64,000 nt of DNA from Butyrivibrio sp. YAB3001 (GTDB lineage Bacteria > Bacillota > Clostridia > Lachnospirales > Lachnospiraceae). A program made the translations under genes and the position numbers. Below the pieces are notes generated by a model. It worked only from the letters and a program-made list of their open reading frames with translations. It did not search any database and was not told where the DNA came from. Location of the stretch: assembly GCF_900112195.1 (NCBI RefSeq), contig NZ_FOKR01000002.1, positions 740,833-804,832 on the forward strand, written 5' to 3'. This document shows, one piece after another, positions 23,885-48,929 of the stretch. Positions within the stretch are counted from its first letter, which is position 1, and every line of letters begins with the position of its first letter.

Positions 23885-24071
23885 CCGTTCATTAGGCAAA
23901 GCTTTAGAAATGTGCAGTTCTCGGACGAGCAGGATGATTTTCAAAATGAAAAATACAAGGGTGGCCGAGTGCTTCGAACAGCGCTGAGATGAGGCCACCC
24001 TTGTATTATGAATTTTAGAAAATCACCGCGCAGACGAACACAAGCATTTCTAAACTTTGCCTAAAAAACGG
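23885..24071 (+). ncRNA. Conserved structured element, copy 1 (candidate RNA)
   Basis: Outer stem: 23892-23901 with 24055-24064 and 23903-23912 with 24045-24054, 20 bp with one bulged C, extended by CCGTT/AACGG (23885-23889, 24067-24071). Conserved strands follow: GTGCAGTTCTCGGACGAGC on the left and CACCGCGCAGACGAACAC on the right, with a GATTTTC/GAAAATC pairing. The inner stem is 23952-23966 with 23993-24007, 15 perfect pairs. The 26-nt loop holds TTCGAACAGCGCTGAGA. Copy 2 at 45596-45784 keeps strands and loop but has unrelated, still complementary stems. The family is not recognised. Orientation is arbitrary. It occupies most of the 468-nt gene-free gap 23676-24143. Confidence 0.65.
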
Positions 24072-24143: not shown

Positions 24144-24938
24144 TTATACAGCCTTAATTGCTTTCTTCGGGCACTTCTCTACGCAGGTTCCGCAGTGAGT
24201 GCACTTTTCCTGATCTATGTGCGCCACATTGTTTTCTACTGTAATTGCCCCTGCAGGACAATTCTTTTCACAAATATGGCAGGCAATACAACCAACTTTG
24301 CAATAGCCATTGACCAGTTTTCCCATATCCTGAGACTTACAGGTCACAGCCTCTTTTGCCTCGTAAGGAATAAGGTCAATCAGATGACGAGGACAGATAT
24401 CTATGCACTTGCCACATGCTTTACATTCTTCCTTATCAACTACTGCAACACCGTTAACAACATGGATTGCATCAAACTGGCAAACAGATACGCAGCTGCC
24501 GCCTCCAAGACAACCATACGAGCAGGTCTTGGAACCGCCACCGGGAGCCTGAGTCTGCAAACGACAATCAGGCGCTCCGTTGTACTCGTACTGCTGCTGT
24601 GCCTTCTCGCAATCACCTGCACAGTGTACGTATGCAACCATCCTTGTTGATTCTCCTGCCTCTACTCCCATTATGCCGGAAATAGTTGCTGCAACAGGTG
24701 CTCCTCCTACAGGACATTGATTGACCGCAGCCTCACCTTTTGCAATTGCTGCTGCACATCCTGAACACCCGGGATATCCACATCCGCCACAGTTATTCCC
24801 GGGAAGAGCTTCTAATATAGCGGCTTCTTTTTCATCTACATCAACATGCAACTTCATGTCTGCAATGCCAAGGATTATACCGATTACAATCCCGACTCCT
24901 GCTACGACACAGGTCGCAATGATTATTCCACTAATCAT
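24144..24938 (-). CDS. rnfB: Rnf complex subunit RnfB, iron-sulfur protein
   Basis: 264 residues, last gene of rnfCDGEAB. Membrane anchor at residues ~2-25, then the four-Cys cluster NNCGGCGYPGCSGCA. Further Cys-rich segments are CSYGCLGGGSC, CKACGKCIDICP, CIACHICEKNCP and CTHCGTCVEKCP, consistent with several [4Fe-4S] clusters. RnfB receives electrons from ferredoxin, and the complex passes them to NAD+ while pumping Na+ or H+. GGAG precedes the ATG. It is separated from rnfA by 199 nt filled with hairpins, unlike the tight spacing of the other rnf genes. Confidence 0.96.
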   Translation of the reverse strand: MISGIIIATCVVAGVGIVIGIILGIADMKLHVDVDEKEAAILEALPGNNCGGCGYPGCSGCAAAIAKGEAAVNQCPVGGAPVAATISGIMGVEAGESTRMVAYVHCAGDCEKAQQQYEYNGAPDCRLQTQAPGGGSKTCSYGCLGGGSCVSVCQFDAIHVVNGVAVVDKEECKACGKCIDICPRHLIDLIPYEAKEAVTCKSQDMGKLVNGYCKVGCIACHICEKNCPAGAITVENNVAHIDQEKCTHCGTCVEKCPKKAIKAV

Positions 24939-24980: not shown

Positions 24981-25129
24981 CCGTAATATACGGAATTACT
25001 CCACTTCGTTCCCGTAATTCCTACATACATTCGGAATCCGGACTTTTCGTCCTACTTCCTCATGTATGTTCGGTCTTCAAGGTCAAATTACATTGCATGC
25101 AAGCATGCAGTAATCTGACTTTGAAGACC
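24981..25129. repeat. Three-hairpin array between rnfA and rnfB
   Basis: Hairpin 1: GGAATTAC (24992-24999) with GTAATTCC (25014-25021). Hairpin 2: ACATACAT (25023-25030) with ATGTATGT (25062-25069), holding GGAC/GTCC inside. Hairpin 3: 25072-25100 with 25103-25129, about 25 pairs, apex GCATGCAAGCATGC. The same order and the ATGCAAGCAT apex recur at 57212-57326 with different stem sequences. No coding frame is supported. Confidence 0.6.
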
Positions 25130-25137
25130 TATATCAC

Positions 25138-45595: not shown

Positions 45596-45784
45596 CCAGT
45601 CGCCGGGGCAGGATTCAGAAAAGTTTGTGTTCGTCTGCGCGGTGATTTTCTAAGATCTATAATTTAAGAGAGACTTCCTCTCAACGCTGTTCGAAACAGT
45701 CAGTCTCTCTTATATTATAGACCAAGAAAATCATCCTGCTCGTCCGAGAACTGCACATTTCTGAGCTCCTGCCCCGACTCCTGG
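45596..45784 (-). ncRNA. Conserved structured element, copy 2 (candidate RNA)
   Basis: Reverse orientation relative to 23885-24071. Outer stem: GGGGCAGGA (45605-45613) with 45767-45775 and TCAGAAA (45615-45621) with 45758-45764, plus AGTCG/CGACT. The conserved strands (45726-45762 and ~45622-45652) are nearly or fully identical to copy 1. The inner stem, 45656-45675 with 45702-45721, has 19 of 20 pairs and no sequence likeness to copy 1. The 26-nt loop (45676-45701) matches copy 1 at 22 positions. It lies 57 nt upstream of the binding-protein start, in the direction of that gene. With the hairpin at 45890 it fills most of the gap 45540-45975. Confidence 0.65.
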
Positions 45785-48680: not shown

Positions 48681-48929
48681 AAAAGCACCCAAAAGATCTA
48701 CTGATCTTAAGGGTGCAGTACGCACGGTTCCACCTTAACTTTTTACTTCAGATTCCAACAAATCCTATCCTTTAACGCAGGCCTACGGTAACGCTTACTA
48801 AAATTGGGCGTTACAGCTCAGGAATGGTTTTCGCCTGCAGTCCTCATAAATGACTTCCACCAAATGTCATTCTCTCTGGATGATTCATCACAAACTACTC
48901 TTTCCGTCAACGCTTTTCTTATGTTATTA
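48681..48929 (-). ncRNA. T-box riboswitch for threonine upstream of thrS
   Basis: Minus strand: GAGAGAATGACATTTGGTGG (Stem I region), the specifier ACC (Thr) in GCGAAAACCATTCCTGAGC at 48826-48828, the T-box AAGGTGGAACCGTGCG (48721-48736), and a terminator stem GCACCC/GGGTGC (48685-48690, 48711-48716) followed by TTTTTG. Uncharged tRNA-Thr would favour the antiterminator. A candidate -35 TTGACA lies at 48959-48964. It explains most of the gap 48593-49039. Confidence 0.93.

Follow-up and report, generated by a model that had tools for sequence, protein, structure and literature searches.

A dispersed palindromic repeat family of Butyrivibrio with conserved loops and stems that change sequence while staying paired

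A structured element first noticed as two copies in 64,000 nucleotides of Butyrivibrio sp. YAB3001 (contig NZ_FOKR01000002.1, positions 740,833 to 804,832; this whole stretch is called the window below) belongs to a real, genus-wide repeat family of Butyrivibrio that is absent from Rfam. Its copies are dispersed among unrelated flanks, are present in some genomes and absent from others at one orthologous site, have at some sites their stem arms replaced as blocks, and have inner hairpins in common between different outer frames. We propose, at a probability of roughly one half, that the family is a non-autonomous REP/BIME-like palindromic repeat which is maintained and dispersed in hairpin form and comes to lie at gene 3' ends, with stems that are kept up and rewritten by DNA copying and loops under some selection as a single strand.

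Two copies on a common plan

Both window copies lie where the earlier note had placed them, in opposite orientations (Table 1), and the two internal strands described there, of 37 and 29 nt, are identical between them. They follow a common plan, i.e. a private outer stem, a large internal loop with two conserved strands, an inner stem and a conserved apical loop. The predicted folds are very stable, with -84.7 kcal/mol (z -11.67) for copy 1 and -100.9 kcal/mol (z -11.61) for copy 2, and in neither case was any of 200 dinucleotide shuffles as good. The stems had been described as having no likeness between the copies. This holds for the outer arms, which differ yet are complementary within each copy, while the inner arms do share some sequence. 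Elsewhere in the window, a T-box leader (48706-48919, minus strand) was found upstream of an apparent threonyl-tRNA synthetase gene, named by reading of the ORF.

Table 1. Positions in the window of the two element copies and of features close to copy 1.
Feature	Position	Strand	Remarks
Copy 1, whole hairpin	23885..24071	+	Model R1 match G000:C29:764725-764891
Copy 1, 5' conserved strand (proximal outer stem, internal loop, inner stem start)	23906..23942	+	Identical in copy 2; conserved in 21 own-genome copies
Copy 1, apical loop region, conserved	23966..23993	+	
Copy 1, 3' conserved strand of internal loop	24015..24043	+	Identical in copy 2
Copy 2, whole hairpin	45596..45784	-	Model R1 match G000:C29:786441-786607
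Copy 2, 5' conserved strand	45726..45762	-	Identical in copy 1
Copy 2, apical loop region, conserved	45676..45702	-	
Copy 2, 3' conserved strand of internal loop	45625..45653	-	Identical in copy 1
rnfB-like gene, 3' end toward right end of copy 1	24144..24938	-	Named by ORF reading, not by family search
Clostridiales-1 RNA (RF01699)	24984-25136	-	Close to copy 1

Family size and distribution

The view of a two-copy element proved to be an undercount. A 22-nt pattern, with at most 3 mismatches, identified 26 places in the own genome (G000) as compared to one for the reversed control pattern, and a covariance model, R1, of 167 positions gave 29 matches there, although match counts of this kind may include both strands of one palindrome. 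The model was built from 21 of the 26 places, with L003, L007, L011, L019 and L022 excluded. These 26 places against a single control hit, together with fold z-scores near -12, rule out a chance origin. Arms included, the element measures about 190-280 nt. The span that starts at the left motif and closes with the CAGACGA motif was measured in 25 own-genome copies; it was 131 nt in 21 of these and 130 nt in two, with single copies at 132 and 140 nt. L007 is without the right motif. In L003 and L011, a two-hairpin insert follows the CAGACGA motif inside the internal loop, with recurring loops (CTCGAAAATACCTCG-like) on stems that differ.

With R1, 21 of 61 genomes had matches (the own genome included), all of them among the 37 genomes of the own genus, while none of the 24 genomes from other families matched. 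Of 299 genomes of the same family, representing 298 genera and with nine candidates scored per genome, only the own genome matched. A model of the inner hairpin alone, R2, found the element in 26 out of 35 selected Butyrivibrio genomes and gave a single marginal match (E 6.5e-4) among 39 genomes from other genera within the family; nine of the 35 had none. The highest R2 count was 66 matches, in G367, possibly including opposite-strand matches of one hairpin, and 41 of these were read out as places. When named genomes were scanned for the exact pattern, 11 stretches were obtained, of which ten bear Butyrivibrio and one Eubacterium sp. in the title. Copy 1 was also found, at 75.9% identity over 92% of its length, in an unannotated gap of plasmid pCY186 of B. 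proteoclasticus B316. In this part of the plasmid (L394, 1275-3145), an annotated transposase of the IS1182 family starts at a distance of 98 nt from the copy.

In agreement with the earlier statement that no named family fits, Rfam searches at gathering scores gave no element match in the window. With E values up to 10 allowed, copy 1 had weak matches alone, all well short of gathering, and 15 loci holding variants had no match; a known Rfam family was rejected on this basis. Copy 1 had no match in a phage collection, nor the exact pattern in viral contigs, and a phage or viral origin was rejected on these grounds. No report of the element was found among the titles and abstract openings surveyed.

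Placement at gene ends and the folding strand

Copies sit mostly at gene 3' ends. Placement was analyzed for 158 places (157 distinct, as one place in G367 was counted twice, as L138 and L325) using mechanically called ORFs of at least 100 aa. The 3' end of the nearest ORF faced the element on the right side in 118 places and on the left side in 100, and 76 places were situated between two convergent ORF 3' ends. In these convergent cases the right gap was the smaller one in 61 (median 41 vs. 86.5 nt, p = 1e-7). The rnfB-like gene was used as a DNA query, and 30 loci were scanned with R2 at this gene; apart from copy 1 itself (L105, own genome), a divergent match was found in G361 (L107) and a partial one in G021 (L120), which overlaps the rnfB match at its end. 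The right end of the element pointed toward rnfB in all three, and the remaining 27 loci had no R2 match at E 0.01. Opposite-strand matches of the same palindromes were kept out of the copy sets. Head-to-head element pairs were seen in L058, L075 and L200, with gaps of 138, 119 and 137 nt, respectively. A terminator-like palindrome (GGCTGTCACACTAATTAGTGCGACAGCC) adjoins the element in L060 (1690-1722) and recurs on both strands in several Butyrivibrio genomes. In G019 (contig C3; L227 and L228), several divergent copies occur within about 35 kb, in stretches that share other repeats as well, some at least 90% identical.

Isolated stem mismatches were counted in 117 copies (21 from the own genome and 96 matches from other genomes, one of which is L138), a set in which related copies inflate the G.U counts. 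G.U exceeded A.C in inner stems (30 vs. 7, p = 0.0002) and near outer stems (54 vs. 29, p = 0.008), with no clear excess in the longer outer arm (90 vs. 71, p = 0.16). This excess favors the plus strand as the folding strand and suggests that it also acts single-stranded, be it as RNA or as DNA. Sigma-70-like sites before the plus strand were not enriched (best score 8.82 vs. 8.85 in shuffles, n = 155); by the same score, promoters facing away from the element were enriched on both sides.

These data bear on two explanations in which RNA is the primary unit. In one, the element would act in cis as RNA where transcripts end, e.g. as a terminator, an mRNA stabilizer or an RNase III substrate, selected on the transcript and dispersed only secondarily. 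The frequent gene 3' ends on both sides, the G.U excess in inner and near outer stems and the conserved, purine-rich internal loops all agree with it; the right end of the element, however, faces its gene without a fixed transcript direction, and in the majority of places the strand with the G.U-biased fold runs antisense to the gene on the right. Some copies, such as copy 1, moreover lie beyond a separate terminator, as judged by eye, and a U-run is not a fixed part of the element. We consider this explanation fairly unlikely. The other is a family of trans-acting small RNA genes, to which the conserved loops and fold and the G.U bias of the plus strand would be suited, and for which the larger left gap could hold a promoter. 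The score before the plus strand equals that of shuffles, though, with outward-facing promoters enriched instead, and match numbers range from zero (9 of the 35 genomes) to 66. Such a family appears very unlikely. The earlier suggestion of a standalone small RNA is weakened by the same missing plus-strand signal, by the many copies per genome and by their patchy presence.

Stems change in steps while loops are conserved

Among 54 diverse copies, each of the 26 consensus pairs of the inner stem was found to change on both sides, so that the stems of homologues do covary. Counted by cell, there were 398 two-sided as opposed to 25 one-sided changes, and G.U made up 2.5% of the canonical pairs. 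The loop strands and the apical loop are conserved, with hardly any variation in spacing, and the internal loops are purine-rich, all in line with the picture of conserved loops on a conserved fold. Compensated point mutation would be expected to leave more intermediates, although the independent control for their absence is thin, consisting of five tRNAs only (five usable of ten), in which 8 of 57 pairs were G.U and 18 two-sided changes stood against 4 one-sided ones. Clostridiales-1, the intended control, had 191 two-sided vs. 8 one-sided changes and 1.0% G.U; it thus displays the same pattern of stem change as the element and gives no clean control.

Orthologous sites allow such changes to be followed in place. 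At a CheY-like gene, the orthologous copies L177 (G016) and L165 (G033), whose right flanks are 98.8% identical, have identical 3' inner arms, while their 5' arms differ by clustered substitutions through which a tandem G.A mismatch becomes paired. L180 differs from L170 and L192, to which its aligned flanks are 91-97% identical, by the replacement of both inner and both near outer arms, with pairing kept. The same holds for L178 as compared to L167 and L186 (flanks 81-95%), upstream of a gene that we take to be groES from reading of the flank, where both arms were replaced as blocks and remained paired. Ordinary recombination between copies could account for some of these block replacements. 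Other orthologous sets changed little: sets 3, 5 and 7 were nearly unchanged, and set 8 and three of the four members of set 6 mostly so. Within the clade of G016, G033 and G035, copies are therefore mostly inherited, with occasional large jumps, and active movement was not seen directly. The CheY-like site carries the element in G033, G016 and G367 and is without it in G035, G368 and G026, a distribution that reads equally well as gain or as loss.

The earlier note had taken the stem covariation as a sign of a selected fold. The covariation is real; as to its cause, one-sided intermediates are few and whole blocks sometimes switch at one site, and much of it may therefore come from DNA copying between the arms.

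Shared inner hairpins and inverted gene ends

Dispersal within genomes is indicated by 21 same-genome pairs whose inner hairpins are 95% or more identical, with flank identity at background level, and the idea of a non-autonomous mobile element moved as a hairpin fits these dispersed copies and their unrelated flanks. In L170/L172 the outer arms match as well (0.97 and 0.86). In L320/L331, on the other hand, the inner hairpins are 100% identical and the outer arms are at 0.45 and 0.44. By eye, the outer frame of L331 is that of L184, L174 and L193 from related species, all of which hold another inner hairpin; the inner hairpin can hence differ inside one frame. Two further variants were observed. 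The inner hairpin of L176 (G033, 2035-2258) has been replaced by several others, its relatives L182 and L188, at the same site according to their flanks, being ordinary, and inner hairpins stand alone without the rest of the element in L196 and L223.

Four loci were examined for joined flanks in relatives, one of which, L311 of G367, was positive. Its site is empty in G033, G035, G368, G026 and G016, and in G367 the left arm continues into a copy of the convergent gene's end, inverted and degraded. As judged by eye, this copy includes 12 nt (GTATTCCACAAA) that are closer to the gene end of G033 and G016 than to the present one of G367. An inverted gene-end copy was also found in L070, over about 53 nt (z 7.6); L311 and L070 are the two clear cases. 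Among 122 elements with a convergent gene end nearby, drawn from the same list as the 158 places, 11 had a rank below 0.05 (p = 0.04). So weak a signal implies that copying of gene ends is occasional or decays fast, and the data do not support the presence of the neighbor's gene end in the left arm as a general rule (11/122).

Proposed mechanism and its implications

Taken together, the few intermediates, the block replacements, the exchange of frames and the inverted gene ends point to arm-to-arm DNA copying by template switching, and not only to compensatory point mutation. We infer the steps from fold to movement as follows. The palindrome would fold when its DNA is single-stranded, and a polymerase may then switch template, using one arm as the template for its partner or copying flanking sequence across the hairpin. 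In this way complementarity would be maintained even as the stem sequence turns over quickly, and an inverted copy of the neighboring gene end could be added. The loops would be kept because a protein, or the fold of the plus strand as RNA or single-stranded DNA, depends on them. A distinctly unlikely alternative is ordinary selection on an RNA fold combined with gene conversion between copies, without template switching: identical inner hairpins in different frames speak for it, and the conserved loops could act as short homology, but clustered corrections of a single arm and inverted copies of gene ends are not readily produced in this way.

An extension of the template-switching proposal would be a new mode of propagation, in which a hairpin encoding no transposase enters near transcript 3' ends, copies adjacent host sequence inverted, even a gene end, to build or lengthen its stem, and swaps its inner hairpin as a cassette between outer frames. 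We regard this as unlikely.

A new genus-wide repeat family is hereby added to Butyrivibrio. Compensatory stem change is commonly regarded as the strongest evidence for a functional RNA fold, and the stems of this family stay paired while changing in steps that seem larger than point mutation would give, in some cases at orthologous sites. If the proposal is true, the creation and maintenance of stems by DNA template switching becomes testable in a bacterium. Covariation alone would then also be a less safe guide in RNA discovery, as a curated Rfam family, Clostridiales-1, displays the same pattern in the same genomes.

Comparison with known systems

The element resembles REP, BIME and REPIN sequences in being palindromic, dispersed, intergenic and non-coding, in forming some head-to-head pairs, and in its location at 3' ends. 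It differs from them in having several internal loops, private stem sequences and fewer copies. REPs measure 20-40 bp according to PMC3733652, a size range far exceeded by the element, with arms extending beyond the 167 positions of R1. Unlike REPs with their RAYT (TnpA-REP), it has no visible tie to Y1 transposases in 23 genomes of the genus. Over 37 genomes, these 23 included, Y1 counts did not track element counts, e.g. 29 element matches and one Y1 in the own genome, 15 and none in G021 (83% complete), and no element matches in G004 and G008 with three and five Y1 matches, respectively. Reverse transcriptase (RVT_1) counts in 18 genomes did not track them either, and both families were rejected as partners, the copy number being unlinked to their counts.

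A classical MITE served by a DDE transposase encoded elsewhere would likewise be short, dispersed, patchy and without evident ORF, and the IS1182 family transposase beside the plasmid copy could be read in its favor. The conserved bases of the element, however, are those of internal loops; its outermost arms differ between copies and are not the shared, conserved terminal inverted repeats of a MITE. Regarding the transposase-bearing relative and the target-site duplications raised by the earlier note, the former was not found among the Y1 and RVT_1 families, and direct duplication was not seen, by eye, between filled and empty sites of two loci. A MITE origin seems scarcely probable.

Clostridiales-1, which is among the RNAs named in PMC2864571, is like the element multi-copy in the genus and poor in one-sided stem changes. 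It matched in all 61 genomes, with 1-32 matches each, and G363 had 11 of equal length and score among the matches listed. Its sequence and fold differ from those of the element, which its Rfam model does not match, and its G.U mismatches (11 vs. 9 A.C) show no excess, unlike those of the element.

The proposed copying is modeled on its closest parallel, the template-switch mutations described in RNA genes, including those for rRNA and microRNA (Monttinen and Loytynoja 2022, PMC8794818). In such mutations, reverse-complement copying creates stems, fixes pairing in one event and spares loops. Different from the RNA genes treated there, the signature described here is found in a dispersed bacterial repeat and is accompanied by block replacement at orthologous sites.
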